Shown here: piece by piece, positions 3,128-18,575 of the stretch | Layout: each line of letters starts with the position of its first letter | Position numbering within the stretch: position 1 is the first letter of the stretch | Virus record (IMG/VR): IMGVR_UViG_3300046535_000604 | Coordinates: 1 to 21,426 of that record | DNA length: 21,426 nucleotides | Source of the DNA: a virus | Direction: 5' to 3' (one strand) | Made by a program: the position numbers and the translations under genes | The notes under the pieces: generated by a model | The model's database searches: none | Told to the model about the DNA's origin: nothing | Seen by the model: the letters and a program-made list of their open reading frames with translations, nothing else

Positions 3128-3819
3128 GGCGGGCTCGTCGGGATTGCTCTCGGCGTCCGGTGCGAGTTGTGGTGTCGCAGCGAGCGATAAGACGGAGCGC
3201 CTCCGTAGAACATGGCCGTCACCTGCGTCCACTGTCCTCCCTCGAAGACGCCCATGTAGCCGCCCGGAGTCAGCGCCGGGCAACACGCCTTGAGCTTGCG
3301 CTGATAGTCGAACTGGACGCCGGCCTTGTTCGAGAAGTAGTCGGGCAGAACGAAGTCGGTCATCAGCACGCCTTCAACCGTGATGCCGTTCTCGTCCGCT
3401 TCCACGGCATCGCCAACCTCACGCATGACGATCCGGCCGTCCACCATCGTGAAGAAGTTGTCGATTGTCGGGTCTTCTCTCATCTCTCCCGCCTCGTGGC
3501 TGAGGTCGACCGTCCAGCTAATCCCGTAGCGGAGACAATCGCCGACGAACACGCGGCCGAATGGCTCCCCACCTGGGGTTTGATCGTGAAAACCGAGAGC
3601 ACCGGGATCCCGGCTATGGTTGTTGATGAAGATCGGCCACGCCCCTGTGGTCTTCCCCGCCTGGAAATCCGCCATCGTCGCGAAACCGTACTTCGCCGCG
3701 TCGAGGCCCCAGGCCGGGCGCAGGTAGTCGTTGTCCCACTTGCTGAGACTCGGCAGAACCGCGATGACCTGGGCATCGGTCAGGATGCGGGAGGCCTGGA
3801 CGAGAACGATGTCGGTCAT
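3124..3819 (-). CDS. Phage protein with HExxE motif (putative metal-binding or hydrolase-like)
   Basis: This 231-residue protein contains SHEAGEMREDP (107-117), an HExxE motif (H108, E109, E112) followed by DP, and later MREVGDAVE (132-140) and TDFVLPDYF (154-162). I recall a phage and bacterial family with the order GFHD...SHExxEMxxDP...ExxDxVE...xDFVxPxWF...PGGY, here complete from H78 to GGY (187-189). The paired acidic and His residues suggest a metal site, but HExxE is not the classical HExxH zinc-protease signature, so protease activity is unproven. There is no signal peptide. The start overlaps the upstream lipoprotein stop (ATGA), and it is followed by another lipoprotein. A long plus-strand frame over the same DNA is judged a shadow. 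Confidence 0.72.
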   Translation of the reverse strand: MTDIVLVQASRILTDAQVIAVLPSLSKWDNDYLRPAWGLDAAKYGFATMADFQAGKTTGAWPIFINNHSRDPGALGFHDQTPGGEPFGRVFVGDCLRYGISWTVDLSHEAGEMREDPTIDNFFTMVDGRIVMREVGDAVEADENGITVEGVLMTDFVLPDYFSNKAGVQFDYQRKLKACCPALTPGGYMGVFEGGQWTQVTAMFYGGAPSYRSLRHHNSHRTPRAIPTSPP

Positions 3820-4154
3820 CGGCCCACCGCCCGACGTACTAGCGCCGCCTTGGTCACGCCCTGCTGGGCCAACATCGTCTCGAACGCCGACGCGAGATCG
3901 AGGATCGCGACAGTTGCGTTGCCAGCCGCGCAGTCCTGCAAGGCGGTCTCAGCGGAGGTCAGCAGCGCCTGCTGAGTTACGGTGAGCCGAGCCCGGAACG
4001 CCTCGGCTACGGGCACGCCCAGCGAGAGCAGCGTACACGCCTGCTGCACCTGGGGTGGAACGGCAATCGGCGGCACGATGACCCCGCCATTTGGTAGGGC
4101 GCAACCGGCAACGGCGAGCGGTACGACGATGATGACGGCACGGAGTCGGTTCAT
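3816..4154 (-). CDS. Lipoprotein, 112 residues
   Basis: The chosen start (ATG at 4154) gives MNRLRAVIIVVPLAVAGCAL, a clear lipoprotein signal with lipobox VAGC and acylated Cys18. The mature chain has Pro/Val-rich residues 20-35, then two helical segments (about 36-75 and 80-108) with Cys40 and Cys75 placed to form a disulfide. A longer frame upstream lacks any reasonable N-terminus and would swallow the preceding small gene. An AGAGGAC-like ribosome-binding sequence lies about 10 bases before the ATG. Lipoproteins of this kind recur near lysis genes of alphaproteobacterial phages; a spanin role is possible but it is longer and less Pro-rich than typical Rz1. Confidence 0.75.
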   Translation of the reverse strand: MNRLRAVIIVVPLAVAGCALPNGGVIVPPIAVPPQVQQACTLLSLGVPVAEAFRARLTVTQQALLTSAETALQDCAAGNATVAILDLASAFETMLAQQGVTKAALVRRAVGR

Positions 4155-4168
4155 GGCTTTTTGTCCTC

Positions 4169-4270
4169 TCAATCCCATCCGTACATAAACAGCGGGCCGA
4201 ATGCAGCGAACACGATCAGGATCACAACGAGGATCACAAACCCGAGCAGGAAGGCTCGGATGAAGGGCAT
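4169..4270 (-). CDS. 33-residue single-helix membrane peptide
   Basis: This micro-ORF begins MPFIRAFLLGFVILVVILIV and ends MYGWD, so almost the whole peptide is one transmembrane helix with a single Arg near the N-terminus. Its ATG shares one base with the stop of the gene before it (TGATG at 4272-4268), a classic coupling overlap that supports reality. It is the third of three consecutive tiny membrane proteins between the holin and a lipoprotein. No family is recognised; a holin accessory, pinholin-like or membrane-stress role is inferred from place and form only. Confidence 0.5.
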   Translation of the reverse strand: MPFIRAFLLGFVILVVILIVFAAFGPLFMYGWD

Positions 4271-4410
4271 CACCGAAGTAAAATAACCAGCAGAACAATC
4301 ACGAGGACCACCCCGATCCCGCCACCTGCGTACAGGTGCGGGCCGCCCATATAGAGGCCGCCGCCGCCGAACAGCAGGATCAGGATGACCAGGAGGACAA
4401 GGAGGTTCAT
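4270..4410 (-). CDS. 46-residue hydrophobic protein, two short helices
   Basis: The start at 4410 overlaps the preceding stop as ATGA. The product has one hydrophobic segment (residues 2-14, NLLVLLVILILLF), a Gly-rich centre (GGGGLYMGG, then LYAGGGIG) and a second hydrophobic segment (about 32-45, GVVLVIVLLVILL). This hairpin of two helices round a Gly/Tyr linker resembles DUF3309-type small proteins found in Rhizobiales and their phages, whose function is unknown. A longer in-frame reading from 4470 exists but ignores the coupling overlap. It is the middle gene of the micro-membrane-protein trio. Confidence 0.55.
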   Translation of the reverse strand: MNLLVLLVILILLFGGGGLYMGGPHLYAGGGIGVVLVIVLLVILLR

Positions 4411-4571
4411 CGCCCAACCCCAAATGCCCCCAAGGCCGCCACCAGGACATAGAGGAACAGCCCGAACCATCCCAGATGTGGAAGAAACGGATACGGAGCT
4501 GGATTGGGCCGCTCGATGAACGATGCGACCAACAGAAGAACGGCGGCCAGCACGAGGAGGAATTGAGCCAT
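4407..4571 (-). CDS. 54-residue two-helix membrane protein
   Basis: The ATG at 4571 is preceded by GGGAGACC, a good ribosome-binding site, and the stop overlaps the next start as ATGA at 4410-4407. Residues 2-18 (AQFLLVLAAVLLLVASF) and about 34-52 (WFGLFLYVLVAALGAFGVG) are hydrophobic helices separated by a Pro-rich loop (ERPNPAPYPFLP). It is the first of three tiny overlapping membrane genes that directly follow the holin, with a stem-loop between holin stop and this gene. Its two-helix topology is compatible with a second holin or an antiholin, but no family is recognised. Confidence 0.6.
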   Translation of the reverse strand: MAQFLLVLAAVLLLVASFIERPNPAPYPFLPHLGWFGLFLYVLVAALGAFGVGR

Positions 4572-4581
4572 TAAAGGTCTC

Positions 4582-4603
4582 CCTACGCCGACGCTGGCGT
4601 AGG
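4582..4603 (-). other. Stem-loop between holin and micro-membrane genes
   Basis: CCTACGCC (4582-4589) and GGCGTAGG (4596-4603) form a perfect 8-base-pair stem with a 6-base loop. No T-tract follows on the minus strand, so it does not look like a complete intrinsic terminator. It ends just before the GGGAGA ribosome-binding site of the gene at 4571, so it could affect translation start, mRNA processing or stability. Confidence 0.55.
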
Positions 4604-4607
4604 CCGC

Positions 4608-4616
4608 ACTATATCA
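4608..4616 (-). promoter_or_regulatory. Extended -10-like sequence TGATATAGT
   Basis: Read on the minus strand this is ACGTGATATAGTG, fitting the extended -10 pattern TGnTATAnT. The TGA is also the holin stop codon. No convincing -35 is seen, as is usual for extended -10 sites. Transcripts would begin just before the 8-base-pair stem-loop and the micro-membrane genes. A closely similar 13-base sequence lies in the spacer before the gene starting at 12883. Confidence 0.3.
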
Positions 4617-4988
4617 CGTTCCGGCGACCGTTACGACGGCGCTAGGCGGAGGCCCAGCCGCCTGCACATTGGCGGCCAGATCGGCGCCCGCCTGAGTCGG
4701 CATGGTCTCCACTTTATTGACCTCCGGCATCGCGGCAACTGCGGCAACCAAGTTCACCTGTTTCTTGTCGATCACACCCCATACCCCGGCGATCGCCGAG
4801 CCGACCGAGCCGACTAGCGCGAGGACGATCATCGATGCGGCCCCCATGACCTCCTGGTTCGACAGGATGGCCGTAGCCTGATCCTGCGTGATCCATCCCT
4901 TGCCGATGGCCCAACCCGCCAGCATCCCGCCGAATGTGGCGATGAGGGTGCGAACGGCACTCTTTACCTGATCCTGCGATGGGTTCAT
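4614..4988 (-). CDS. Putative holin, Pam3-gp28-like
   Basis: This 124-residue protein has a short charged N-terminus (QDQVKSAVRT), a first helix at about 12-28 (VRTLIATFGGMLAGWAI), a GKGWITQDQ turn, a second helix at about 48-72, then DKKQ and a soluble tail with AAMPEVNKV and Pro-rich residues. The layout of GKGWI between two helices and a 'PEV-V' tail matches the Pam3-gp28 family of putative phage holins that I recall. It lies 3 bases after the endolysin stop and has an AGAGGA ribosome-binding site. The holin would open the inner membrane to release the signal-less endolysin. The assignment rests on pattern and neighbours. Confidence 0.75.
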   Translation of the reverse strand: MNPSQDQVKSAVRTLIATFGGMLAGWAIGKGWITQDQATAILSNQEVMGAASMIVLALVGSVGSAIAGVWGVIDKKQVNLVAAVAAMPEVNKVETMPTQAGADLAANVQAAGPPPSAVVTVAGT

Positions 4989-4991
4989 GTG

Positions 4992-5789
4992 CTAATTCCT
5001 CTGGCTCTGCCATCGTTGCAATGCAGCATAACTCCTTGGACCGAAATTCCCATCGACCGCGAGATTTGCGCTGATCTGATCGTTAAGCGCTCGCTGCAAT
5101 GCGATGATCATAGCGTGAATGTCCACCTGCGGCACAGGCGCGGGAGCCGGAGCGGGAGATGGTAGGCCAACGCTAAGCCACGAGCCGAAGTCGTGGCCGG
5201 CCGGAGCCGTGTTCCGATCCACGTCAAAACCAAACCCCCACGGATCGCCAGCCTGTCCCTGCTCGATCTCGGACAGGTGCGCTCCCGCGTAGTCCCGCGA
5301 TCCTCGCCACCCCATCGCTCCCGCAAGCCAGTCGTAGGACACGAGCCCCGCGGCGTCCAGTTGCGAGCACACGAGCCCCGAGCCGTATACGCCGACCTTG
5401 TAATGGCTGGCTAGCGCCGCGTTGACCGCCTCGAAATACAAGACGATATACGGCATGATCCCAAGGGTCGCATCGAGGTCGACGGCGAAATAGATGCAGG
5501 TGTTGGACGGTTGTCCGCATTCCTTTGCCTGGGCAAGCGCCGCCATACCTTCGCGCGTTCCGTTCGCCGAATTGAATGTGGCTGGCTGATCTCCGGCGGC
5601 TTCCCAAACCGACACGATATCGAGCCCGGCACCGAGGATCGCCTTGGCTTCCGAGGCCGTCAGGTTCTTGCGGGCATTGAAGCTGTAGTAGCGCCCCACA
5701 AAGCTGACCCCAGCCGCCTTCGCGATCCCGAGGATGCGCGTCACGTCCTGCGCAGCATCGAAACCGATCAGCCGAGATGGATCGCTCAT
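4992..5789 (-). CDS. Endolysin: DUF1906 glycoside-hydrolase-like domain plus peptidoglycan-binding domain
   Basis: This 265-residue protein degrades or binds cell-wall peptidoglycan at lysis. Residues 5-205 match the Rv2525c-like glycoside-hydrolase-like domain (DUF1906): IGFDAA (8-13), a FVGRYYSF strand (30-37), VSVWEA (59-64), IYFAVDLD (99-106), VGVYGSG (132-138) and FGFDVDRN (186-193). Acidic residues at strand ends (D11, E63, D104, D106, D189) are likely active-site or metal residues. A Pro/Ala linker (210-220) leads to a C-terminal peptidoglycan-binding repeat, LQRALN...VDGNFGPRSYAALQRWQ (231-261). There is no signal peptide, so release needs the holin encoded next. GGAGGGGG precedes the ATG, which overlaps the previous stop (ATGA). 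Muramidase-type activity is plausible but untested for this family. Confidence 0.88.
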   Translation of the reverse strand: MSDPSRLIGFDAAQDVTRILGIAKAAGVSFVGRYYSFNARKNLTASEAKAILGAGLDIVSVWEAAGDQPATFNSANGTREGMAALAQAKECGQPSNTCIYFAVDLDATLGIMPYIVLYFEAVNAALASHYKVGVYGSGLVCSQLDAAGLVSYDWLAGAMGWRGSRDYAGAHLSEIEQGQAGDPWGFGFDVDRNTAPAGHDFGSWLSVGLPSPAPAPAPVPQVDIHAMIIALQRALNDQISANLAVDGNFGPRSYAALQRWQSQRN

Positions 5790-6037
5790 TCCCCCTCCGG
5801 TTCGTTCTGCGCTGCCAATCGCTCAGCCTGTAGCTCCTTGAGCCGCGCACCGATCACATCGGCATCGTCAGCCGCAAAATCTCCCGCGCTCTGCCCCGTA
5901 CTCGTCGCCCTCGGACTCGTCTCGGTTTGCCAGCGCGGCGTGCAATTCTGCGGCTTGGCCTCGTGGAGCGCCTTCAGTGTGCCGCAATGGACGCACCGCT
6001 CCGAGGCGGCATCCCATTCGTGTTCTGGGGTCGTCAT
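5786..6037 (-). CDS. Small Cys-containing protein of unknown function
   Basis: This 83-residue protein opens with HEWDAASERCVHCGTLK, a CxxC (C15, C18) preceded by a His, with a further Cys at 32: a possible zinc-binding half-ribbon of a type seen in short phage proteins. The C-terminal half is polar, with a short acidic and Ala-rich helix (about 57-80). Both ends overlap neighbours by 4 bases (ATGA at 6037 and 5789), placing it firmly between the spanin-like gene and the endolysin. No enzymatic motif is visible. Confidence 0.65.
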   Translation of the reverse strand: MTTPEHEWDAASERCVHCGTLKALHEAKPQNCTPRWQTETSPRATSTGQSAGDFAADDADVIGARLKELQAERLAAQNEPEGE

Positions 6038-6312
6038 TTGATGTTCGACCCCTTCAATCTCGCCTCGAGCTCACCCGTCGTCGGACGCGTCGATTCCAAA
6101 ACCTTGATCCGCTCCTCGAGCCGATCGTCGTCCCGCTGCGCCTGCTTGGTCAATTGCTGAACGCCATAGCGCATCCTGTCCATCTCAGCCCGCACGGCAT
6201 TGCGGAACTCCTCGTGCTCGCGGATCGAGAGCGACTTGTCGAAGGCACGGCTCAGGACGCCGATACCTGCCACCAGCAACGCCCCGATCGCTATGACGGC
6301 TTGCCAGTCCAT
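6034..6312 (-). CDS. Membrane-anchored coiled-coil protein, inner-spanin candidate
   Basis: This 92-residue protein has one N-terminal transmembrane helix (residues 4-20, QAVIAIGALLVAGIGVL) followed by a long charged helix (about 28-85) with heptad-like spacing, including REHEEFRNAVRAEMDRM and DDDRLEERIKVLEST. An N-terminal anchor plus periplasmic coiled coil is the form of Rz-type inner spanins, and it lies just upstream of the endolysin. The matching outer-membrane partner could be one of the two lipoproteins further downstream. Other phage membrane/coiled-coil proteins have the same outline, so the spanin call is tentative. It starts 3 bases after the fibre stop without a strong ribosome-binding site. 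Confidence 0.6.
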   Translation of the reverse strand: MDWQAVIAIGALLVAGIGVLSRAFDKSLSIREHEEFRNAVRAEMDRMRYGVQQLTKQAQRDDDRLEERIKVLESTRPTTGELEARLKGSNIK

Positions 6313-6315
6313 TCA

Positions 6316-9300
6316 TCACATTTTCATCGGGCCGATATAACTCGTGCCAATGGCAACATTTTTCACAAAATAGGCGCTCTCGAACGCAATCGCGCAAACC
6401 CCTCCAAAATAGGACGGGTTCCACACTGACTTGATGCCGAGATCGCCAATGACCTGAAGGAGCGATGAACTCCCCACCATAGGATCGTACGGCGGCTGTT
6501 CGCGCCATTTGAAATCAGTTTTCGAGAACGTCTTTCGCCCGTCGATCCACGCCTCGATCATTCCATCGTGTGGCGCACTGCCCGGTGCTGACAAGCCGGT
6601 CGTGTCGTAGGTGTTCATCTTGGTATGGATTTCGATAGAGTACCATTGCCCGGGGTTGAGCGCGGCCAGGATGCCGTACATAAAATCGTCCTGGCAGAAA
6701 TCATAGCCGTACTGGTAAGTTCCGAGCATGAACTTCTGATAGTCCGGGCCACCCGGCGTCACGCCCATGTTGTCCTGGTTGCGCGCGCTCCACCCATTCA
6801 TCGCCGCATAGTGGTTTTCGCCCTTCAGAGATGCCCGCGTGCAGGCACAAGCCCCGCCGTTCGATGATACCGACGTGCGATGCGCCGTACCCATCGTCCA
6901 CTTGCCGCCCGTACAGCTTGCGTTATCGGGGGGGATAAAGTCGGAGCCGAGCATCATGTACCAACGAACGTATAGCTCGTTTGGCAGCTTTCCCGCCGGC
7001 CACGGCGTCGTTCCGACCGGCTGGTACTTCAATTGCGCCTGCCCGCTGTTGATCGCGACCGTGGCCGTCGATGTAGCCGTGCCACCCGACCACTCGAATT
7101 GCGGGTTGATCCCGAACTCGTTGGGGCTGAAGAATGCCGCCGTGGCCGTGCCAAACCGGCTGGTGAAATCCCCAGTTTTGACTCCGATACGATAGAAGAG
7201 ATTGGACGAAAGACCGTCATTGAAGGTCGTCGATACCGGAACAGTCCAGGTGGTCGCGTCACTCCATGTCGTGCCGTCCGTCGAGGATTGCAGGGTGATC
7301 GTCGCGACGAAGGTGCCAGTGATCGTGACATGGATATCCCGGTTAGTTCCGGTCCCGACGATGGGGATTACGTCCGTGAAGGTGTTGCTCGCGATGTTCG
7401 CCGAGAAGGCGATGTAGTTTCCCGCCTCGTTGCGGGTCGTGCCTGGGGTCTTGTTGCCCTGAATCGTAACCCCGCCAACCGTAAAATTCGACCCGAGGAT
7501 GCTGAAGCTGTCAAAGTGCGAGGGGTGCTGGACATGGTTGGGCAGAGTGACGGCGACGCTCTTCATCCCGTTGAACGTCGTAAACGTCGGGACGACGCCG
7601 CCCTTTGTCACATTTGACGTGGCGGTGATCTGGCTCCCGACCTCGAAATTATACCACTCCGCGCCGTAGGACTTGATCGTGTAGTTGTTGGCGTCAATGA
7701 CTGTCTGGATCGGGTACCAGTCGTGGAGGAGGACGCCGCAGACCGAGACCTGGAAAGGAAGATTTACCCAATCGCCGGCTGAGGCTCCGTGCGTCGGGTC
7801 TGTGATCGTTATCACATCTGACCCGCTCGTGCAGCTGAACCCGTTGGTACTGCCGTCCATCGTCAGGTTCGAGGTCTTGCGCGGCGTTCTGACACCCTGG
7901 CCGGTTGCATCCTGCCCCGGCGCGTAGGTCGAGGCCGGATTCCCATCGGTCGTCGGAACGAAATAGAACTCCTGGTCAGCGATGTACTCCATCATCGGTT
8001 CGAGCCGATACATGATCGCCGATCCGCTGCTAGCGGCCAGCGGCGTGTACCCGTGGTTCGAGTAGGTCGACGGCACAACCACCGGCCATGTCCCATATGC
8101 CTCGATGCCGGGAGTCTGTCGCGCAAACATAAGTTGGACGCCGGTTCCGGTTGCCGTACCGGCGTGATTGCTCCCGCCCTGCGTCGTAACGGTGTGGGCA
8201 TCGACGACGGTGATGACCGAGGGCCACGGGAAATATCCCCCTTTGTTCGTCGAATTTGCCGACACGCTCGATACCCACATATTCGTTGCTAGGGCCGAGG
8301 TGTCAGGGATATTGCTAATCGTGTTGCTGCCGGAGACCACATCGCCAGTCGTAAAGATCGTCGGCGCGCTCTGAATGAACTGGATCGAGACGCTGCCAGA
8401 TGCAAGCGCATTGCGGTCGAGAGTGACCTGGGTGCTGCTATCGACGGTGGCAACCTTCGAGTCGATGTCGAGCTTCGCGAAGGTTGGATCGTAGGCGAAA
8501 AAGTGATTGAGTATCCCGGTGGTGCTGGACAGCCCGGTGATAATCTTCGATCCGGCGGTCGCCGTGCCAGTGAGTACCGTCACACCTACCTGGGCCTTCG
8601 TGTTGGTGTGGAATTTGCCGAGAGTGGACCACGGGTATTTGGCGGTATTCGGGCTTGTGCCTAAATCCCACGAAGAAACGATATTGGCATCGTCGCCGGC
8701 CTCGGTGAACATCCCCGAGAAGCTCGACCCGTCCGCAAAGAAATAGATCGACGGGTCCGTGCCAAGCCCAACGTCCTGCGTATAGCTATTAGCAACGCCG
8801 AGATGCACCCCCGCGCCGTCGATACCGTTCGGATAGAGCACGTCCTTAACTCGAAATACCTTTGGCGACGCTGTGCTGGCAAATTGCTGTGTGTTTGTGA
8901 CAGTCAGCACCGCTGTCGAGACCGTCTTCGCCGCGTTGGGCATTGCGAAGTGGAGCGCAAGCGTCGCACTGGCGATGTTGAAGGTGCCAGTCGAGGTCAC
9001 GGACTCGGGGGAGCTCAGAAGGGCGTTGTCGAGACATGCCAGCGTGTCGGTGCTGGTATCGGTATAAGTCACAAGGATCGTAGGTGGCGTCCCAGTATTT
9101 CTCGGTGCGATATACCGCGGGTTGCCGGTCATTTCCTTTAGGAAGAGTTCAAGGTTCTGGTTGGGATCGGCGACGGCCTCCTGAACGAGTTGGGTAATCG
9201 GCATGTTCCAGGTCTGCGGCGCCCCGGTTATCGGGGATGTACAGCTCGACGAGAGACCGCCGCTGCAACTCGATGCGTAGCTGGTCGTCCCCTGCGATGT

Positions 9301-9561
9301 GCCGTTCTTGTCGATCCAATCCCCGCCGCTATTGATCCACTTCTGGCCCGTGCTGCGGTTGTAGTAGGTCAGCGTCGAGCCGTAATTGGCCGCCCCGAAT
9401 TGCGAATTTTCCTCCGACACAAACCATCCGGTGAGGATGGCGGGAACAGAGAGGGCAATGCCTCCGTGCCCGAACAGCTTGCCCTCGCCATTTGGCACGG
9501 CCACGAACTGCGACAGTGCCGCAAAACAAACCGCCGCAAGAAGCAACCAACGTCTTATCAT
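6316..9561 (-). CDS. Large tail fibre/spike with polysaccharide-lyase-like C-terminus and N-terminal export signal
   Basis: This 1081-residue protein probably binds and may digest a host surface glycan. It opens with a signal-peptide or anchor-like segment (MIRRWLLLAAVCFAALSQFV). Residues about 50-100 contain YYNRSTGQKW and GGDWIDKNGTSQG, a pattern seen in tail-spike and lyase-associated proteins. The middle is built of beta repeats: GSKIITGLSS...VTLDRNA, GSNTISNIP, SGSDVITITDPTHGAS...VIDANNYTI, and TITLQSSTDGTTWSD, all common in phage fibres. From about residue 862 a jelly-roll like that of alginate or polysaccharide lyases follows: ELYVRWYMMLG, MIEAWIDGRKTF, and SVWNPSYFGG. The gene abuts the previous stop with no spacer and lacks a strong ribosome-binding site, so expression may depend on coupling. 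Lyase activity is inferred. Confidence 0.8.
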   Translation of the reverse strand: MIRRWLLLAAVCFAALSQFVAVPNGEGKLFGHGGIALSVPAILTGWFVSEENSQFGAANYGSTLTYYNRSTGQKWINSGGDWIDKNGTSQGTTSYASSCSGGLSSSCTSPITGAPQTWNMPITQLVQEAVADPNQNLELFLKEMTGNPRYIAPRNTGTPPTILVTYTDTSTDTLACLDNALLSSPESVTSTGTFNIASATLALHFAMPNAAKTVSTAVLTVTNTQQFASTASPKVFRVKDVLYPNGIDGAGVHLGVANSYTQDVGLGTDPSIYFFADGSSFSGMFTEAGDDANIVSSWDLGTSPNTAKYPWSTLGKFHTNTKAQVGVTVLTGTATAGSKIITGLSSTTGILNHFFAYDPTFAKLDIDSKVATVDSSTQVTLDRNALASGSVSIQFIQSAPTIFTTGDVVSGSNTISNIPDTSALATNMWVSSVSANSTNKGGYFPWPSVITVVDAHTVTTQGGSNHAGTATGTGVQLMFARQTPGIEAYGTWPVVVPSTYSNHGYTPLAASSGSAIMYRLEPMMEYIADQEFYFVPTTDGNPASTYAPGQDATGQGVRTPRKTSNLTMDGSTNGFSCTSGSDVITITDPTHGASAGDWVNLPFQVSVCGVLLHDWYPIQTVIDANNYTIKSYGAEWYNFEVGSQITATSNVTKGGVVPTFTTFNGMKSVAVTLPNHVQHPSHFDSFSILGSNFTVGGVTIQGNKTPGTTRNEAGNYIAFSANIASNTFTDVIPIVGTGTNRDIHVTITGTFVATITLQSSTDGTTWSDATTWTVPVSTTFNDGLSSNLFYRIGVKTGDFTSRFGTATAAFFSPNEFGINPQFEWSGGTATSTATVAINSGQAQLKYQPVGTTPWPAGKLPNELYVRWYMMLGSDFIPPDNASCTGGKWTMGTAHRTSVSSNGGACACTRASLKGENHYAAMNGWSARNQDNMGVTPGGPDYQKFMLGTYQYGYDFCQDDFMYGILAALNPGQWYSIEIHTKMNTYDTTGLSAPGSAPHDGMIEAWIDGRKTFSKTDFKWREQPPYDPMVGSSSLLQVIGDLGIKSVWNPSYFGGVCAIAFESAYFVKNVAIGTSYIGPMKM

Positions 9562-11226
9562 TCAAGTCACGCCATCAATGGCCGGATTCATCCACATCGT
9601 CAGCGTCGCCACGGCAACTCTTACTTGAGCGACGAGGAGCCCCTTAGCGGCCGCCGTAAAGGTTGCGGGCGTCGTTGCCGTTCCCGATTGGAGCTTCTGC
9701 GTAACTGGGTTGGCGCCGATATTCGGTACGGTCCAAGGATTCGTGCTGGTCGCGTGGGCGACTCCGGTGCCGACAAACGGCTGCGCGTTTCGGTTGCTGG
9801 CGAAGGTATAGTTCGGAAACGAAGCCGAAGCAGCGTAATCAATGTCCGACCAGATTTGCCGATCGGTCAAGGCGGAGGCCCCATTTACCTGGGCAAACTC
9901 AATCGCATAAGTCTGCGCGGTCGTCGTGTTGTTCCAAATGGAAAGAGGCGGCAGAATAAATGGGCTGAACTCGCTCGCTAGAGATGAAGTCACGATCTTC
10001 CAAGCAACCGGCGCGCCATTAAATGAGGCTCCTCCGGTCGTTACGAAATCAGTATTTTCTGCCACCAGCGATCCATAGGCACTCTCGTATTGAAACGTGT
10101 AGAGCGTGTTGGCGCTATCCGAGTTGCGGACCCAGATGCTGCCACTAGCCGCATTCCATGTGCCGGTCTTGAGCGTCGGCGTGGCGTTGAGTTTCATGTC
10201 TTGAAGGATGACTTGGAGCGTATCAATCAGACTGACGCCGACTATGGCCGTTCCACTATAAGACGACATATCGCCGTCCCGTATGATAACTTTCCCAACA
10301 CACCCAAGAAGCCCCACGATAAGCGGAGATTGCTTCGTGGCACCAAAAGAAAATGTGGGATTGATGATTTCGCAATCACAAGTTCTAAACGTCATTGCTC
10401 CGGTTGATGGAGTCTTAGAGGAAAAAACAAAGGTGCAATTGATTGCTCGAATATATCCGGTAAGACTACTGCTCGCCGCCGTAGGGCCAAAGTAAATCGT
10501 AGCTCCTGTCGCGGTCGAGGGACACGATATCGTGCAAGTATGCATGACAAGTTTAGAATGGACGCTGAGCGTAGCGTTGATGTTGAACGAAGAAGATGTG
10601 CTAGAGTTCGTACCGGCAGTCATCGACACGCCATACATATACATGGCACTGCCGGCCGCGCCTGCTATGGAAAAGGCTTGGGCCGCCGCACCAACTGCCT
10701 CGGCCGCACCGGCTGTAAACGCGGAGAACGACGCTGCGCCGCTCGGTGTCACACTGATGATCGCGAGGCCACCAGCCGGGGGCGTATAGGTGATCGCCGC
10801 GGTTGCCGTGGTCGAGAGGGCACTGTCAACCAGCAAATAGTCACCTACGCCACATACAGCAATGCCTGCGGTGATGGTGGTTTTGGCCTTAGCCCAGGTC
10901 GTCCCGTCCGAGTTGTCGCCCGTCGTTGCAGCGAAGAATGTCGTTCCGGCAGCGTTGACGGGGGCTCCAGGAAACACGGACATGAAAACGACTGCGCCAA
11001 TCGACAATCCCGCTCGGAGGAACCATCGACGAGTCGGGCCGTCCTTCTTCAAATCCTCGGCCACAAGTCGGTCCATCATCGTCGGCTCGCGCTCGGTCTT
11101 GCGCGTCGTCACGTCGAGCAGGAAGTCGTCGAGAGACTGGATTGCGAACGGGAGCGGGCGACCCACGGCCGCATCGAGAGCCGCGTCGCCGTAGCTGAGC
11201 AGAGTCAAATCCTCCAGGTCGATCAT
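9562..11226 (-). CDS. Beta-helix (pectin-lyase-like) surface protein with internal Tat-like signal
   Basis: This 554-residue protein starts at the ATG at 11226, overlapping the upstream stop (ATGA). Residues 1-50 are acidic and unfamiliar; residues 65-92 contain TRRWFLRAGLS, a hydrophobic run and VNAAG, the form of a twin-arginine signal with AxA cleavage site. After it, TTGDNSDGTTWAKAKTTI and GVGDYLLVDS are the opening of a right-handed parallel beta-helix as in pectin-lyase-like proteins. The body is Ser/Thr/Ala-rich with IIRDGDMSS-type rungs. The C-terminal 130 residues (SIWNNTTTAQTY, DRQIWSDIDY, VTQKLQSG) match a domain widely seen at the end of phage structural proteins. A start at Met50 or Met51 would give a normal Tat signal; no good ribosome-binding site precedes it. 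Likely a fibre or surface-exposed adhesin. Confidence 0.72.
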   Translation of the reverse strand: MIDLEDLTLLSYGDAALDAAVGRPLPFAIQSLDDFLLDVTTRKTEREPTMMDRLVAEDLKKDGPTRRWFLRAGLSIGAVVFMSVFPGAPVNAAGTTFFAATTGDNSDGTTWAKAKTTITAGIAVCGVGDYLLVDSALSTTATAAITYTPPAGGLAIISVTPSGAASFSAFTAGAAEAVGAAAQAFSIAGAAGSAMYMYGVSMTAGTNSSTSSSFNINATLSVHSKLVMHTCTISCPSTATGATIYFGPTAASSSLTGYIRAINCTFVFSSKTPSTGAMTFRTCDCEIINPTFSFGATKQSPLIVGLLGCVGKVIIRDGDMSSYSGTAIVGVSLIDTLQVILQDMKLNATPTLKTGTWNAASGSIWVRNSDSANTLYTFQYESAYGSLVAENTDFVTTGGASFNGAPVAWKIVTSSLASEFSPFILPPLSIWNNTTTAQTYAIEFAQVNGASALTDRQIWSDIDYAASASFPNYTFASNRNAQPFVGTGVAHATSTNPWTVPNIGANPVTQKLQSGTATTPATFTAAAKGLLVAQVRVAVATLTMWMNPAIDGVT

Positions 11227-11393
11227 TGCTTCACTGCTCCGGTGTTCGTCCATACCGTTCGCGCCCCGATGGTCGTGAACATCGCGCCGTCGTTCAGCCA
11301 GACTGTCTGTGTCGTAGCTGCGGGCGTCGAACCGCCTTGCGCAAGCCAACCTCCTAGCAGCACGGGCAGGAGTAGCAAAACTAGGCGGATCAT
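11223..11393 (-). CDS. Small exported protein, 56 residues
   Basis: The gene overlaps both neighbours by 4 bases (ATGA at 11393 and at 11226), which strongly supports it despite its size. The product begins MIRLVLLLLPVLLGGWLAQG, a typical signal-peptide shape, with a probable cleavage near STPA. The mature remainder is only about 30 residues with two similar strands, TVWLNDGAMFTT and TVWTNTGAVKQ. The TVW-N-GA repeat suggests a tiny beta-hairpin unit. Its role is unknown; it sits between two exported fibre-like proteins and may be a minor fibre component. Confidence 0.65.
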   Translation of the reverse strand: MIRLVLLLLPVLLGGWLAQGGSTPAATTQTVWLNDGAMFTTIGARTVWTNTGAVKQ

Positions 11394-12508
11394 GACGGGG
11401 CCAAGAAAACGGTAATCGTGCCAACTCCAACCCCACCCGTCCACCCGGTCGTCCCGGTCGTCTGGAGACAAAGGCGGTCGCCAATCGCGAGGTTGTCGGT
11501 CGCGCCCCCAACAAGGGTGAGTGTCTGGTTGGTCGCCGCCGTACCATTGGCGTTGAAGCTGCCCGAATGAAGGATTGTTCCTGCTGAACACGCGGTTCCG
11601 CTCGCCGCCTTGTTGACCGTAACTGTCGATGTACCGCCGGTTGCCGTCTCGACCGCGCCGATGATTGCGCTTATCGTCGAGGCTTGGTTGATGACCGCGA
11701 TCACGACATTGTTCGGGTTGACGGTCGCGATCCAGCCAACCGACACGGGAACATTGTGGAGTTTGGCGATACCTGCCGTCGAGGTCGTGGCAGCGGGCAG
11801 TGCCGCCCACGTCATATCATCATGGAGAAGCGTTGTTCCAGTCTGCGTTGCCGGCTGAGGCACCCCGAGGACTGCGTGCCAATTCGTGCCGTCGGAGAAG
11901 AAGTCCGCCCCCTGCTGGGGACCGAGCTTGATGCCCGTAACTCCTGCAATTCCATTGATCGTCGAGGTTGTCGAAGTCAGCGTGTTGCCGACCGTGCCGG
12001 TCTGGTAACTGAACCCAAAGCCCGACGCGAAGCTGCCTGTTGCCTGGGGTACGGGATCGGTCTGCGTGACCGTGTTCGTCCGGTTGACCGTCTTCTCCGC
12101 GTCGGTTGAGAGGATCGTATAGGCGCTGTTGCCGCTCTGCGTGTTGAGCGTTATGGTTAAATTCCAGACTGTGCCGGATTTGGAGAACCCGGTGCCGAAG
12201 GTCCACGGCAGGAAAGCCGAGCCATCACTCCCCAACCCATCAGCGACGGCAGGCCAAGCCACACCAAAAAACGGTCCCGGTGCTACGCTGTTTAGCGTCA
12301 GGCACGTAGTCGTACCCGTCGAGGTATCGGTCGTGCAGTCTCCGCCTTGGGTGAAGCCGCCAAACGACGTGCCTCCGACATTGTATTGGATCTGACCTGC
12401 AGAGCCCCCCGGTGTCCCACTGCCTCCGGTGCCGCCCCCATTTACAATCTGAGCAATCGCGCCCCCCGAAACGAGACACGCCGTCAGGACGGCGATTATC
12501 CGGCGCAT
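11390..12508 (-). CDS. Exported tail-fibre-like protein
   Basis: This 372-residue protein has an N-terminal signal peptide (MRRIIAVLTACLVSGGAIAQ, probable cleavage after AIA). Next comes GSAGQIQYNVGGTSFGGFTQ and DCTTDTSTGTTTCLTLNS, the repeat that opens many phage tail-fibre stalks in alphaproteobacterial and metagenomic phages. The remainder is Thr/Ser/Gly-rich beta sequence, including a central AEKTVNRTNTVTQTDPVPQA region typical of fibre beta-helical segments and a C-terminal VVIAVINQASTISAIIG domain with a Cys pair. An alternative lipobox (LTAC, Cys11) is present but its hydrophobic run is too short to favour it. The start has a GAGAGGGG ribosome-binding site upstream, and the stop overlaps the next gene. 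Confidence 0.75.
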   Translation of the reverse strand: MRRIIAVLTACLVSGGAIAQIVNGGGTGGSGTPGGSAGQIQYNVGGTSFGGFTQGGDCTTDTSTGTTTCLTLNSVAPGPFFGVAWPAVADGLGSDGSAFLPWTFGTGFSKSGTVWNLTITLNTQSGNSAYTILSTDAEKTVNRTNTVTQTDPVPQATGSFASGFGFSYQTGTVGNTLTSTTSTINGIAGVTGIKLGPQQGADFFSDGTNWHAVLGVPQPATQTGTTLLHDDMTWAALPAATTSTAGIAKLHNVPVSVGWIATVNPNNVVIAVINQASTISAIIGAVETATGGTSTVTVNKAASGTACSAGTILHSGSFNANGTAATNQTLTLVGGATDNLAIGDRLCLQTTGTTGWTGGVGVGTITVFLAPS

Positions 12509-12511
12509 GGC

Positions 12512-12883
12512 CTAGCGCCCCTCTCTGATCGTCAGCCCGGGCGTTGCACTCGCGGCGATGAAGCAAAATTGGTTGACGGGGGCGATAGGCCAGTAGTGCA
12601 AGGAGCCCGCCGCTAACGATGTCGTCCCCGCGGTCCCGATCGCCGCGGTGCATGGCGTGTTCGGGGTCGACGCCGCGGTCTCGCAATAGCCGATGACGAT
12701 CGAGCCCCCCGTATTATCGAGGGTGAGCGTCTTTCGATCGGCGTTGGCTCCGAGGCAATGCCCCGACGTGACCGATAGCGTAGCCGTCGTCACGAGATCC
12801 GAGACGCCGTGCGCCGCAGTTTGTGCCTGCGCGGCATGCCCGAGAACCGCCAGCAATCCAGCGGCGAGCGCTATCCTCCGCAT
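12512..12883 (-). CDS. Small exported beta-sandwich-like protein
   Basis: This 123-residue protein has a canonical Sec signal peptide: MRR, hydrophobic IALAAGLLAVLGH, and AAQA before Gln22. The mature part (about 100 residues) shows DRKTLTLDNTGGSIVIGYCE, then GTTSLAAGSLHYWPIAPVN and FCFIAASATPGLTIREG. This strand order matches small phage beta-sandwich proteins that decorate virions, though those normally lack a signal. Four Cys (43, 67, 78, 107) could pair after export. GGAGGG precedes the start. It is the first gene of the fibre cassette and follows a possible internal promoter. Confidence 0.68.
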   Translation of the reverse strand: MRRIALAAGLLAVLGHAAQAQTAAHGVSDLVTTATLSVTSGHCLGANADRKTLTLDNTGGSIVIGYCETAASTPNTPCTAAIGTAGTTSLAAGSLHYWPIAPVNQFCFIAASATPGLTIREGR

Positions 12884-12942: not shown

Positions 12943-13359
12943 TCAATGAAGTAACCCACGCTCTCGAAGATCGACAAGATACACTATATCAAGCGCCTTC
13001 TCGATTGATATGCCTTCACGCCAATCAGTTTCGTCCCGGCCACCCTTCCCCGCATTACAGGTCGCGCATAGTACCTGAAGATTGCTCTCATCCATTGCCA
13101 AATGAGGATATTTGTGGCGAGGCTTGATATGATCGACGTTCATTACACTACCATCGGCCGCCGAACGTCCGCAGAGTTGGCATCGTCCGCCATCACGCTT
13201 AAGCACCAAATATCGGAGTTCCCGCCACTCAGGGGTGCTATAAAATGCCGGGATGGATCTACGCGCAGCAGCAGCGCGCATCTCCCTCGCCCTGCGTTTC
13301 CGCAACTTGCGAAGTTGCGCCTTGCTCTTTTTCCGCGCTTGGTGTTGATATATGTCCAT
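12943..13359 (-). CDS. HNH endonuclease (Cys-type)
   Basis: This 138-residue protein is a compact HNH nuclease. An Arg/Lys-rich helical N-terminus (residues 8-36) likely contacts DNA. The core has FYSTPEWRELRYLVLKRDGG (39-58), CQLC (60-63), the NVDHIKPR motif (74-81: D76, H77), N93 and LCATCNAGKG (97-106), giving both the zinc-binding CxxC pairs and the DH...N...N active site. It differs in family from the two plus-strand HNH genes near the left end. GGAG lies three bases before the ATG at 13359. It sits within the late operon but next to a structured spacer and a reverse-oriented gene, so it looks like a mobile or moron gene; a packaging-related nicking role, known for some phage HNH proteins, is less likely so far from terminase. 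Confidence 0.88.
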   Translation of the reverse strand: MDIYQHQARKKSKAQLRKLRKRRAREMRAAAARRSIPAFYSTPEWRELRYLVLKRDGGRCQLCGRSAADGSVMNVDHIKPRHKYPHLAMDESNLQVLCATCNAGKGGRDETDWREGISIEKALDIVYLVDLRERGLLH

Positions 13360-13597: not shown

Positions 13598-13804
13598 ATG
13601 ATCTGGGCTGATCGGCTGGCGCTGGCTTGGGGCTTCATCCTGATTTTATTCATTCTAATGTTGCAGCAACCCGGGGGCTTCGAGAACTCCCTGGCCGCTG
13701 AAAACATCATCGGCGGATGGGGTTCGCTGTTGTTCAAGCTCGTCGTCATCCCCTGGGGACTCCTCCGCATTGTCGACGCCATGTTCACGCGGCGCTCCTA
13801 CTGA
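13598..13804 (+). CDS. Reverse-oriented small membrane protein
   Basis: This 68-residue protein is on the plus strand amid 18 kb of minus-strand genes. The ATG at 13598 is preceded by GGGGAC at a workable distance; a GTG at 13583 is less likely. It has one strong helix (about residues 8-23, ALAWGFILILFILMLQ) and a second (about 43-58, SLLFKLVVIPWGLLRI), with MIWADR at the N-terminus and FTRRSY at the end. This layout is familiar from short hypothetical proteins of Rhizobiales phages, function unknown. Its last 7 bases overlap the stop end of the convergent virion gene. Opposite orientation and its own leader suggest separate expression, for example as a moron acting on the host membrane or on superinfection. 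Confidence 0.65.
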   Translation: MIWADRLALAWGFILILFILMLQQPGGFENSLAAENIIGGWGSLLFKLVVIPWGLLRIVDAMFTRRSY

Positions 13805-15849
13805 CCTGGCGAAAATTCGAGGCGCGGATAAACCGACGCGCCGAGAGCCGATGCCGGCGCTCCAATCGCCGGAGATAGCGGAGGACGACGCGCCAAAATC
13901 TGCGCCAGCGTTGCCATATTGGTTGCGGGATCAGACGATGCCATCATCCTGGCGGCAGCGGCATTTACCTCTGGGTTTTTCGTCTCGCTTAAAAAATTGG
14001 CAAACCGCGGCAATAACGCCAGCATCGGAGCGGGACTTTGTGCCGCGATAGAGGTTGCCATCGGCGCAATAATATCATGCGCCAGACTGAATCCTCCCCC
14101 ACCTTTATCCTCCGCAACGCGCCGCCCTGTTGCAGAATTGCCAATCACATTCTGCCGGGTCTGGAACATTTGTCCCTCGGGGCGCGCCACCTGATCCATG
14201 AATTGCTGAAATGAGGTCTGATCCGGAAAGATTGCGGCCAACTGATCCTGGCGTGTCTTGTTTCCCATCAATGCCAGCGCCTCGTTCCCCCCAGGCCCCT
14301 TCCCCGCGATCTGCGATTTGAGCGTATTCGCCGCGCCCAGCCGATAGAAAGCCTGATCCCCTGGATCGAGCCGACTGATTTCATAGGCGATACGATCCGG
14401 AGCCATGCTCGCAAATCCGCCGCCCATCTTCATCGCCGCGAGACTTTGGCTCGGGCCGCTCCAGGCCGCTCGAGCCGGAGCATATGCAGGATTGTTCGCA
14501 TCCATGAAGTCACGAAAGCCCTGCATCGTCTTTTCAATAGCGTTGACACTCTCGTCGCGAACGAGTCGACCTGTCGTGCTGTCGCGATGGCTGTTCAACA
14601 CATCATCGAGGCCGCGCTTGACGTAATCGAGGGTCTGCCAACTGGGAACCGCCTCAAACTTCGGATCGCCAGCCACGTTGAACGTGATCCCTAAAGATGC
14701 CGGATTGCGCCCCTCCTCCTTTGCGAGGTTCAGGGCATTGTTCGCTGCCTTCACCATCGCCGGACGCGTCATCATGTTGTCCAGCGCCCCTCCTGGAGCG
14801 ATTGTGTCGGGATTGAGCGGAGGAGCATCATAGAACTTTTGCCAAAGCGGTGCCGTCTGCTGAGCCCGCTGCTGCATCAACTGCTGCCCGGTCGTGAATG
14901 TCGGGCCGCCGCTGGCGATGCGAGCATCCACCGCCGCCGTAAGTCGATTGCCCGCCTCAGCGTCGCGCTGATTAAGGAAATCGGTCACGATCTGCCTGGG
15001 CTCCCCCTGCATACGCGACATTCTTCCCGCAAGAGCCTGGGTGTTCTCCCCCCCAACATCCATCAGCGACAAATTGGGATTGGCATGGAGGCGTAGCGCC
15101 ATCGCGGCCGCGTCCGGTCCTCCGGCGGCCATATCCTGAGAGATACGACCACCGATCAACTGAGCGGCCTGCTGACTGACCGCGTTGGGGTTGAATTGTC
15201 GTGCAAGAGCTTGCGCCAACGGCGTGGCCGCCGACGTGACGACCGGAAGCGCACCCCCAACCAAAGCCCCCACGCCTGCTCCGATCCCGGTGTCTTTTGC
15301 GAGGCCGAGCGCATCGGTGCGCGGCGACTCCGCAAGACCAGTGGATGCACCTACTCCCGCCCCCGTAGCCGCGCCTCCTAGCGCCAATCGACCAAGCGTA
15401 GGTGCGACGGCAGGAGCAATCGCTCCGGCCGCTCCGAGAACAGGCGCAACCGGAGTCATATAGCCTGCTGCCGTAGACAACGCGCTCAACCCCGGATTTT
15501 CGGCGGAGAACTTTTCCCCTTCGCCACGCTGTTGGGCCATGTTGCGAAAATATCGCTCCCCGAACGTGCTCCCATCGGATGCGCCCGGGAGCATCGGCTG
15601 AATAAGAGCGCGCCCCGCGGCGCTTACTGGACCGGCAAGACCGAACGTCGCCGCTTCTCCGGCCGCGTTCGTCATTCCTGGGAGCGCCTTTGCCAAAGCA
15701 TCCAACCCCCCGCTGTAATCGGTGATAGAGGGGGCTTCGGCAAGCTGCTGGCGTAGGGAACCAGGGCGCGCCTCATCAACGACATAGCCAGGAGGCAATG
15801 CGCTAGCCGCAGGAGGATCAATGACATACCCCGGAGGAAGATCACTCAT
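13798..15849 (-). CDS. Internal virion / DNA-ejection protein
   Basis: This 683-residue protein starts at the ATG at 15849, overlapping the preceding stop (ATGA). The N-terminus carries a duplicated LPPGYV(I/V)D peptide (4-11 and 18-25), a feature of phage internal virion proteins. Residues about 90-210 are a Gly/Ala-rich hydrophobic region (AAGAIAPAVAPTLGRLALGG, GIGAGVGALVGGALP) that could insert in a membrane, as ejection proteins do. The rest is mainly helical with NPNLSLMDVGGENTQALAGR and NNPAYAPARAAWSGPSQ, sequences I associate with podovirus internal proteins. It follows a lytic transglycosylase gene, as in the ejectosome module of podoviruses. It probably enters the cell envelope with the DNA. 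Confidence 0.72.
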   Translation of the reverse strand: MSDLPPGYVIDPPAASALPPGYVVDEARPGSLRQQLAEAPSITDYSGGLDALAKALPGMTNAAGEAATFGLAGPVSAAGRALIQPMLPGASDGSTFGERYFRNMAQQRGEGEKFSAENPGLSALSTAAGYMTPVAPVLGAAGAIAPAVAPTLGRLALGGAATGAGVGASTGLAESPRTDALGLAKDTGIGAGVGALVGGALPVVTSAATPLAQALARQFNPNAVSQQAAQLIGGRISQDMAAGGPDAAAMALRLHANPNLSLMDVGGENTQALAGRMSRMQGEPRQIVTDFLNQRDAEAGNRLTAAVDARIASGGPTFTTGQQLMQQRAQQTAPLWQKFYDAPPLNPDTIAPGGALDNMMTRPAMVKAANNALNLAKEEGRNPASLGITFNVAGDPKFEAVPSWQTLDYVKRGLDDVLNSHRDSTTGRLVRDESVNAIEKTMQGFRDFMDANNPAYAPARAAWSGPSQSLAAMKMGGGFASMAPDRIAYEISRLDPGDQAFYRLGAANTLKSQIAGKGPGGNEALALMGNKTRQDQLAAIFPDQTSFQQFMDQVARPEGQMFQTRQNVIGNSATGRRVAEDKGGGGFSLAHDIIAPMATSIAAQSPAPMLALLPRFANFLSETKNPEVNAAAARMMASSDPATNMATLAQILARRPPLSPAIGAPASALGASVYPRLEFSPGQ

Positions 15850-17909
15850 TGCGGAACCCACCTACCTCCACGATAGATCAGCGGGGGTCCACCTTGTGGG
15901 TTTCTAGCAGTTTGCCCTTCTTGAAACGTTGGTGTAGCCGATTGATTAGGTGCGGGATTCCCCACAACACCCCGATTTGGGATCTGCGGCAATCCTTCGT
16001 AGGCGGTATGCTGAAATCCCTGAATCGGATTGGCTTTTGCCCATTCCGGCATATCAAAAGCAAGATGAGAGCCAGTCTCGCGGCGCGATTTGTTCCACGC
16101 CTCGAACATATTGTTTTCCCATTGCATCCGCCCCAACAATGACGCCGCAATAGCGCGGTTGGCTTCTGGCTGCAAATCGGGATTTGGCATGGCCTTATCC
16201 AGCATTGCAAACTCTTGAAATGCTGGACGACTGCTCACCCCTTTGATCGCACCGAATACAGCTTGCGTTGAGGCTTTCCGCATCTTTTCTACTTCCGCAG
16301 GATCGGCGAGGCTAAGTTTCTGTGGATCGACGTTGATTGATTTCAGCCATGCCGCCGCCTCGCCGCTCAACCCTGTGCCTTTGCCCGTTCCTACGATGGC
16401 AGCAGCATTGAGGAAATTCTGAAGATTCTGGATCGAGCCTTGGTTGCCCTGATAGGCTTCGCGCAGCTTCCCAAAATCTTCGGATGCTACCTTCTCAGCA
16501 TCGAGCGTGGGATTGGCGGCCACTCTTCCCGCTTCGCCCGCTATAGCGGCGCTCGCAATGGCCGGGGCTCCTCCGGGCATTGTTACCGCCGTAGGCGGCG
16601 TACCGGGCGGAGATCCGGGCGGGGGCGGAGCAGAAACAGTTGCCTCGGGCAAGCGCGGACTTTGGAATTGCTCGTGAAAAGTAAGTGGTGGCGTCTCACC
16701 GGGCTTTGTTTCCATGCCGATGCTTTCGCCCTGACGCGCCGTCTGCGGTGTCCCCGTCGTGTGCCCTATGGCCTTGGCATGCTCTAAACTTTCCGCCTGC
16801 GTCGGATCGTAAGGCCCTCCCGATGTTGGGATAAGGCGAGCCATGCCTGGTACTCCATTTTGCGATGGCTCTACGAATAGCTGATATCCCTCCGGCGTCA
16901 TTTTCTGGATCATCCCGAGCGCTTGCGTTGCAAGAGGCACACCAGCTGGGAATCCCCGATAATGATTGTAGGTATCAAGCAAGCCCTGCACATTCAAAAC
17001 TGGCGAGCCAGTTGCCGTCCCAACCGATGGCGCTGCCGCAGTTGTCGGCTGAGTTGTTTGCGCGGCACCGGGAGGCTGACCACCGAACATCTTGCGGTTG
17101 GCAGCAAGAAGGTCGGCGATCTCTGGATCGGGAGCGGCTTGCGCCACCTGCTGCGGCGCGCCGGCTGGGACACGTCCCCCTGCTGCGGAGGGATTAAGGT
17201 TGGGATCGAGAAGCATCGCATTCTCAGCCTGCGCGCCCGCCGCCCTCCGAGCATCGGCCTCTTGATCCGTCAACCCCGGCTCCAAAGCAGAAGCCAACCG
17301 CACCTGTGGTGTCGGTGCGGTCCCTTGCCCTGACAGCGCCGCTAAGGCTGCGACCCGATCCGGAGCGGGCGCAAACGTATCTGGCGCATTTGCGGGAGGG
17401 ATAGCATTCGTCGCCACCGCGCCAGGCGCAGGCATCGGCGTTGCCTTCGCCGCGGCAAGCGCACCTATCCCCGAGACGGGCGGAGGAGCGGGAAGCTCCT
17501 GTCCGTTCTGCAGAGCGAGATATTTCTGAGCGATGTAGCCGGGATAGGCTGCCGTCTGCGCCCCTCGATTCCCGCCACCGGGACCGGCGAAATAGCTCCG
17601 CAGCGCTTCATCGGTCGGGTCAATGTTCGCACCGGCCGCCTTTGCTGCCTCTGCCTTGGTCAGATTGTCGTTGAGGATATTTGCGGCGCCATAGATTGCT
17701 TGAACTGGATCGTAAGGATCGGCGATTTTATAATGACTTGCGGTCTCCGGCATGATTTGCATAAGGCCGCCAGCGCCCTTTGGCGAAGTTGCGTTGGGAT
17801 CATTACCCCCCTCACCCGAGGCGAGCGCTCGCAGCAGCATCGGATCGAGATTGTTGAGACGGGCAGCCTCCTCGAAATGGGGGTCTAGTTCAGGGTCGAG
17901 CGGCGGCAT
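15846..17909 (-). CDS. Virion-associated soluble lytic transglycosylase
   Basis: This 687-residue protein has an N-terminal SLT domain (about 9-125) that cleaves peptidoglycan during DNA entry. Signature elements are ALASGEGGND (28-37, catalytic Glu33), SPKGAGGLMQIMPETA (42-57), AIYGAANILNDNL and LRSYFAGPGG. It is followed by long Pro/Ala-rich, low-complexity linkers (about 140-440), then a helical region with LDAEKVASEDFGKLREAYQG and a C-terminal domain ending GGPPLIYRGGRWVPQ. The mosaic of SLT plus extended tail is typical of podovirus internal core proteins. The start at 17909 lies 20 bases inside the preceding gene and has a GGGGGG stretch just upstream. No signal peptide is present, in line with packaging into the virion. 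Confidence 0.87.
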   Translation of the reverse strand: MPPLDPELDPHFEEAARLNNLDPMLLRALASGEGGNDPNATSPKGAGGLMQIMPETASHYKIADPYDPVQAIYGAANILNDNLTKAEAAKAAGANIDPTDEALRSYFAGPGGGNRGAQTAAYPGYIAQKYLALQNGQELPAPPPVSGIGALAAAKATPMPAPGAVATNAIPPANAPDTFAPAPDRVAALAALSGQGTAPTPQVRLASALEPGLTDQEADARRAAGAQAENAMLLDPNLNPSAAGGRVPAGAPQQVAQAAPDPEIADLLAANRKMFGGQPPGAAQTTQPTTAAAPSVGTATGSPVLNVQGLLDTYNHYRGFPAGVPLATQALGMIQKMTPEGYQLFVEPSQNGVPGMARLIPTSGGPYDPTQAESLEHAKAIGHTTGTPQTARQGESIGMETKPGETPPLTFHEQFQSPRLPEATVSAPPPPGSPPGTPPTAVTMPGGAPAIASAAIAGEAGRVAANPTLDAEKVASEDFGKLREAYQGNQGSIQNLQNFLNAAAIVGTGKGTGLSGEAAAWLKSINVDPQKLSLADPAEVEKMRKASTQAVFGAIKGVSSRPAFQEFAMLDKAMPNPDLQPEANRAIAASLLGRMQWENNMFEAWNKSRRETGSHLAFDMPEWAKANPIQGFQHTAYEGLPQIPNRGVVGNPAPNQSATPTFQEGQTARNPQGGPPLIYRGGRWVPQ

Positions 17910-18573: not shown

Positions 18574-18575
18574 CC

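Follow-up and report, generated by a model that had tools for sequence, protein, structure and literature searches.

We propose that a cassette of five consecutive genes, g1 to g5, in the viral IMG/VR record IMGVR_UViG_3300046535_000604 (hereafter the window; 21.4 kb, with its late operon on the minus strand) encodes spike and fibre proteins that are exported to the periplasm by the Sec system, processed and oxidised there, and joined to virions at lysis. To this reading, which is based on sequence comparison, we assign a probability of roughly 0.55. Export itself is well supported, and the exported proteins would then join the virion. The case is built on the export signals, their conservation in relatives, their exact placement, the concordance between spike bases and their fibre partners, and an enrichment in cysteine; from these we infer actual export, leader cleavage, disulphide formation and attachment to virions at lysis.

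Export signals in the g1 to g5 cassette

The original prediction held that five adjacent genes carry N-terminal export signals. Its gene coordinates were right (g1, 12883-12512; g2, 12508-11390; g3, 11393-11223; g4, 11226-9562; g5, 9561-6316; all on the minus strand), and signals were found on g1, g2, g3 and g5, the exception being g4, in which the motif TRRWFLRAG begins at residue 65. To score N-termini, we used a home-made export-signal scorer that combines a prokaryotic matrix of the von Heijne (1986) type with h-region and n-charge terms. In calibration on annotated E. coli K-12 genes, a cut-off of ≥14 passed 11/14 exported, 7/29 membrane and 0/89 cytoplasmic proteins; 16 of 1023 shadow open reading frames (ORFs), which are GC-rich, also reached it (1.6%). 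The scores were 18.6 for g1, 19.1 for g2, 14.8 for g3 and 17.9 for g5, compared with none at or above 14 among the 13 other window proteins scored, where a lipoprotein at 3816-4154 came to 13.9 (4/5 versus 0/13, Fisher p = 0.0016). The pattern also recurs in three related contigs and in the cultured phage Mx8, and the earlier view that it is not due to chance was upheld. Because the scorer separates signal peptides from membrane anchors poorly, g3 and g5 may be cleaved or may stay as anchors. In Edwardsiella phage ZHS (locus L022), signal-like N-termini (16.8 and 14.1) were seen on a head-module protein (7864-8469) and on the annotated major capsid protein (8526-9695); the scorer may have called these two falsely.

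The cassette genes are tightly packed, which constrains their start codons: g2 starts 3 nucleotides past the g1 stop, the start codons of g3 and g4 each share an ATGA with the stop before them, and g5 directly follows the g4 stop. g1 (123 amino acids, four cysteines in the mature part) lies at the position of the relatives' head-spike base. Its signal peptide, MRRIALAAGLLAVLGHAAQA followed by Q (12824-12883, minus strand), has a Shine-Dalgarno-like GGAGG upstream; the scorer's choice of cut is residue 22, and the AxA site is at residue 20. The fibre-like g2 (372 amino acids) has four mature cysteines (58, 69, 307 and 347), and its signal peptide, MRRIIAVLTACLVSGGAIA followed by Q (12452-12508, minus strand), has no other in-frame start codon nearby. 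Both g1 and g2 clearly carry Sec signal peptides of the signal peptidase I type, while g3 and g5 have the core with a weaker cleavage site. The very leucine-rich g3 (56 amino acids) consists of the signal MIRLVLLLLPVLLGGWLAQ and a short tail, and is similar in size and layout to proteins of 53-73 amino acids in the three related contigs.

g4 (554 amino acids) has a fibre-like body rich in serine, threonine and glycine, with seven cysteines, and no homologue of it was found. Its TRRWFLRAG, which starts at nucleotide 11034, agrees with the Tat (twin-arginine translocation) consensus T-R-R-x-F-L-R and is followed by GLSIGAVVFMSVFPGAPVNA and then A; the complete Tat-like signal is TRRWFLRAGLSIGAVVFMSVFPGAPVNA followed by A (residues 65-92; 10951-11034, minus strand). 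Read from the MM at residues 50/51, a start that would bring the motif close to the N-terminus, g4 would score 12.6, below the cut-off. g5 (1081 amino acids) begins with a signal peptide or anchor, MIRRWLLLAAVCFAALS followed by Q (9511-9561, minus strand). Residues 63-152 form a disaggregatase/DNRLRE-type repeat (PF06848, E = 7e-14, 52.3 bits against a cut-off of 33.9). The C-terminus is polysaccharide-lyase-like; it falls short of the PF14099/PL14 polysaccharide lyase cut-off (E = 0.0012, 19.2 bits against 29.9), and its AlphaFold model has a predicted local distance difference test score (pLDDT) of 33.

Head-spike bases and star peptides in related contigs

A check of related phage contigs for the N-termini found runs of signal-bearing genes in all three, G001, G002 and G003 (loci L005, L018 and L024; all viral contigs), with leader sequences that differ. 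Homologues of g2, each with its own signal, are present in G002 (69% identity over 123 amino acids), G003 (62% over 118) and G001 (59% over 111), and g5 is 33% identical to its counterpart in G001. G002 also has in common with the window a virion structural protein (61% over 425 amino acids), an acyltransferase (63%) and a phrog_5107 protein (45%). It is the homology of g2 and g5, together with gene position, that would place the window in the spike and fibre scheme set out below.

At the g1 position, genes match phrog_12296, "tail fiber protein" (3e-7 in G002, 2e-5 in G001), and a family profile whose alignment includes the G003 protein matches PDB 8cjz_h, the Carin1 "Spike Base Protein" (1.2e-10), and 6tb9, RcGTA Rcc01079 (7.7e-10). 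The proteins of G001, G002 and G003 at this position are RcGTA-type spike bases by profile, and all are signal-bearing. The RcGTA head spike consists of a pentameric base (Rcc01079) and a fibre (Rcc01080; PDB 6tb9/6tba). The base attaches to the capsid via its N-terminus, fibre residues 2-10 (IALGLGLGL) sit in the base pentamer as a five-point star, and the spikes bind capsule polysaccharide (PMC7296036). The three contigs have a star in the gene after the base; unlike in RcGTA and Carin1, where the matched chains are 84 and 92 amino acids long and the matched domain starts at residue 14-21, both base and fibre partner bear signals and the base has an added cysteine pair. A predicted model of the spike base is all-beta with a mediocre pLDDT of 67, and a fold search with it gave no match at E ≤ 0.001; the Carin1 capsid chain h ranked second.

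The gene after the base encodes 67-73 amino acids, with the predicted mature N-termini QGFGFGMGF in G001, GIGIGIGI in G002 and QGFGFGMGL in G003. The star peptide thus lies within a residue or two of the predicted cleavage site, and cleavage would therefore generate exactly the docking end. Base and star partner are concordant: both are signal-bearing in G001-G003, and neither is in P8625, ZHS and L027, where a leader-less base has a leader-less star neighbour (MIGLGL in P8625 gp24 and ZHS gp9, MPNALGLGLGL in L027). In L025 and L028, which also have a leader-less base, there is no star at the neighbour's start. The star motif was rare near ORF starts among the 5,858 ORFs scanned (some contigs entering twice, as locus and as full record). 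A DNA pattern scan for the star peptide returned only two already known contigs, and further base scans gave no new members.

The placement of the leaders is similarly regular. From the predicted cleavage site to the YxG motif there are 34/34/34 residues in the three leader-bearing bases, compared with 33, 33, 36, 36 and 37 from Met to YxG in the five leader-less ones; the cleavage used here is the AxA-type site, which in the G001 base is two residues off the scorer's top choice. By sequence, the leader is thus an exact addition in front of domains that elsewhere are leader-less virion parts.

Elsewhere in its genome, G002 has three further, larger tailspike-like proteins with leaders, one of which weakly matches the phrog_2234 tail spike (E = 0.0013). 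Two tailspike-like proteins with leaders lie in tandem (locus L033, 3591-5846 and 5831-8101, minus strand); their N-terminal stretches are closely alike and their bodies differ, which suggests swapping of receptor-binding parts behind a common N-terminus. An N-terminal adaptor profile made from G001 and G002 fibres recovered only its own training members and was not used.

A leader on a tail fibre of the cultured phage Mx8

In the Myxococcus phage Mx8, protein p64 has a leader ahead of its tail-fibre N-terminal domain. A profile from four leader-less tail-fibre N-termini matches p64 at 1.6e-14 from residue 30, the predicted cut falls between residues 28 and 29, and no other start codon lies between the leader and the matched domain. 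The predicted mature N-terminus begins TRNSVGTYTLPGG. The leader scores 13.98, slightly below the cut-off; p66, two genes past p64, scores 19.3 and has seven cysteines. Within 21170-22368 of Mx8 (locus L047), both p66 and the SGNH-like p67 bear leaders and many cysteines, and p67 might be a lipoprotein. Like the window, the Mx8-like podoviruses (Mx8, Bradyrhizobium ppBjS10J-1 and Rhizobium RHph_I3_18) have the order phrog_5107 protein, acyltransferase, virion structural proteins, fibres and lysis genes. Unlike Mx8, the Bradyrhizobium and Rhizobium relatives have a fibre without a signal. The g1 to g5 cassette was not found in these three isolates.

Cysteine content follows the presence of a signal. 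The cysteines at +7 and +45 of the spike base are present in 3/3 signal-bearing versus 0/5 signal-less bases (Fisher p = 0.018), and even cysteine counts were found in 18 of the 24 non-zero cases among signal-bearing proteins (p = 0.011), these p-values being indicative only because the proteins are partly homologous and the lists were hand-picked. Per 100 mature residues, 27 signal-bearing proteins have 1.42 cysteines, compared with 0.63 for the signal-less fibres that related phages encode and 0.30 for core virion proteins. Four virion-core proteins of the window (494, 227, 687 and 687 amino acids) have no cysteine in 2095 residues. Taken as sequence evidence, the exact add-on signals, their recurrence in the relatives and Mx8, and the higher cysteine content of signal-bearing versions lend strong support to the suggestion that the proteins are exported.

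Proposed route and alternative explanations

We propose that the cassette encodes outer virion parts as preproteins: a head spike or decoration, a fibre, and polysaccharide-binding and probable polysaccharide-cleaving proteins. Late in infection, host Sec (Tat for g4 and similar genes) would carry these preproteins to the periplasm, where signal peptidase would cut the leader and disulphides would form. The cassette lies directly upstream of the lysis genes; at lysis, mature spikes and fibres would encounter the completed heads and tails and dock on them from the outside, dividing morphogenesis between two compartments. Docking at lysis is favoured over cytoplasmic assembly because, if export is complete, a part behind the inner membrane has no access to heads before lysis. 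As a scheme for tailed phages at large, we put this forward tentatively, at slightly less than even odds: heads and tails would be cytoplasmic, secreted, cleaved and oxidised spikes and receptor-binding fibres would dock only at lysis, and the signal-peptidase cut would create the docking N-terminus.

Several observations weigh against export followed by docking. The g1 protein of the window could not be recognised as belonging to the RcGTA/Carin1 base family, with no PHROG and no convincing PDB match, and its virion role is suggested by gene position; in Pfam it has only a weak match to Phage_cement_2 (E = 0.01, below the cut-off), and the window has neither a star peptide gene nor an RcGTA-type head fibre. 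g3 and g5 may be uncleaved anchors, having hydrophobic cores but poorer AxA sites. The Tat-like motif of g4 is internal, behind a 64-residue n-extension if the ATG at 11226 is used. Other phages do well with signal-less spikes and fibres, which leaves export without an evident benefit. Attachment after lysis is a step that we infer, and we count this, along with the overlapping and hand-picked cysteine lists, on the same side.

The main rival, which we regard as unlikely, is that the proteins are exported and act on the host or its surroundings, as released depolymerases or adhesins, by remodelling the surface of the infected cell or lysogen, or by blocking superinfection. The export signals and the DNRLRE and lyase-like domains of g5 would suit such a role, and T4 Spackle (PMC7650644) and Cor-type lipoproteins (PMC4936722) are exported phage proteins that act on cells. 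Virion parts are indicated instead by the relatives, whose g1-position proteins are head-spike bases with a base-binding star in the next gene, and by the tail-fibre N-terminal domain of Mx8 p64.

It is improbable that the hydrophobic N-termini generally stay uncleaved and hold the proteins to a membrane or the virion as anchors, given the AxA sites in g1, g2 and most relatives, the leader-less N-terminus that cleavage restores, and the N-terminal location of the RcGTA star. The idea, part of the original prediction, that these N-termini are kept for attachment is disfavoured for g1/g2-type proteins and spikes because, once cleaved, these would begin as their signal-less homologues do, and it is this N-terminus that in RcGTA binds capsid or base. 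For g5 it is possible: like its G001 homologue, g5 has a poor cleavage site with a conserved LFGHGG just after it (residues 29-34; 9460-9477, minus strand), and the strong leucine bias of g3 also fits an anchor. The motif LFG[HR]GG stands right behind the hydrophobic segment in the g5 proteins of the window and G001 and in the g5-position protein of G002, whose body shows no resemblance to g5 that we could recognise, with no other copies in the loci scanned. It is possibly an anchor or docking motif, and g5 may be a membrane-anchored enzyme.

More doubtful still is an origin of the genes in secreted proteins of bacteria, with leaders that are leftovers of no function in the phage. DNRLRE repeats are common in secreted bacterial proteins, which would fit such an origin; the same families, however, are leader-less elsewhere among phages, the leader being an exact addition where it is present, and the fact that homologous bodies bear different leaders in several phages points to maintenance. 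Chance or mistaken start codons are very improbable, since, even with a home-made scorer and signal-like starts in 1.6% of GC-rich shadow ORFs, there is no alternative start for g2 of the window, the G002 and G003 bases or Mx8 p64, the pattern is repeated in four phages, and the cysteine and star evidence is independent.

Relation to known exported phage proteins

T4 Spackle (gp61.3) is a phage protein with a cleaved leader and a disulphide that resides in the periplasm (PMC7650644), as proposed for the cassette proteins; unlike them, it is a tail-lysozyme inhibitor and is not described as a spike or fibre in that report. Exported endolysins (Lys44 of fOg44 and signal-arrest-release, or SAR, endolysins) exemplify phage use of host Sec during infection (PMC6116005) and, unlike the cassette proteins, are lysis enzymes rather than virion parts. 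Searches of a library of open-access papers turned up no account of spikes or fibres of tailed phages that bear signal peptides, the closest case being gp40, a tail-hydrolase-like esterase of Xanthomonas phage PBR31. Lack of signal peptides has been taken as support for a phage origin of adhesin-like proteins that are targets of diversity-generating retroelements (PMC6199706). Should entire groups of phages export their spikes and fibres, this no-signal-peptide rule would mislead annotation, tailed-phage assembly would extend beyond the cytoplasm, and the location of some phage "secreted" genes between tail and lysis genes would be explained. The proposal is testable in Mx8, a classic laboratory phage of Myxococcus xanthus.

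Genomic context of the cassette

The operon on the minus strand runs from the phrog_5107 protein through acyl-CoA N-acyltransferase, virion structural proteins, transglycosylase, an HNH gene, g1 to g5 and small genes to the endolysin, holin-like and lipoprotein genes. Its Mx8-like virion core (phrog_5107 protein, acyl-CoA N-acyltransferase, virion structural proteins and SLT transglycosylase) occupies 13798-21324. By this virion gene order and the homologous phrog_5107 protein, acyltransferase and virion structural protein, the record is an Mx8-like podovirus (the window includes neither portal nor capsid genes). Annotated phage records searched with the proteins of the window and its relatives yielded few or no matching isolates, and scans of genome contigs found no relative. 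Host contamination was rejected as a source of the cassette because it is flanked by virion and lysis genes and recurs in other viral contigs.

Downstream of g5, gene a (92 amino acids; 6034-6312, minus strand) also lies 3' of the g5-position genes in G001 (76% identity) and G003 (56%). The lysis end of the operon (3816-5789, minus strand) comprises the endolysin (4992-5789), a holin-like gene (4614-4988) and the small lipoprotein (3816-4154). The lipoprotein, MNRLRAVIIVVPLAVAGC, adjoins the endolysin and holin-like genes and is a probable outer-membrane spanin (o-spanin-like). An HNH gene lies immediately ahead of the cassette (12943-13359, minus strand), and two further HNH-endonuclease-like ORFs, judged by eye, are found on the opposite strand at 401-976 and 958-1689.

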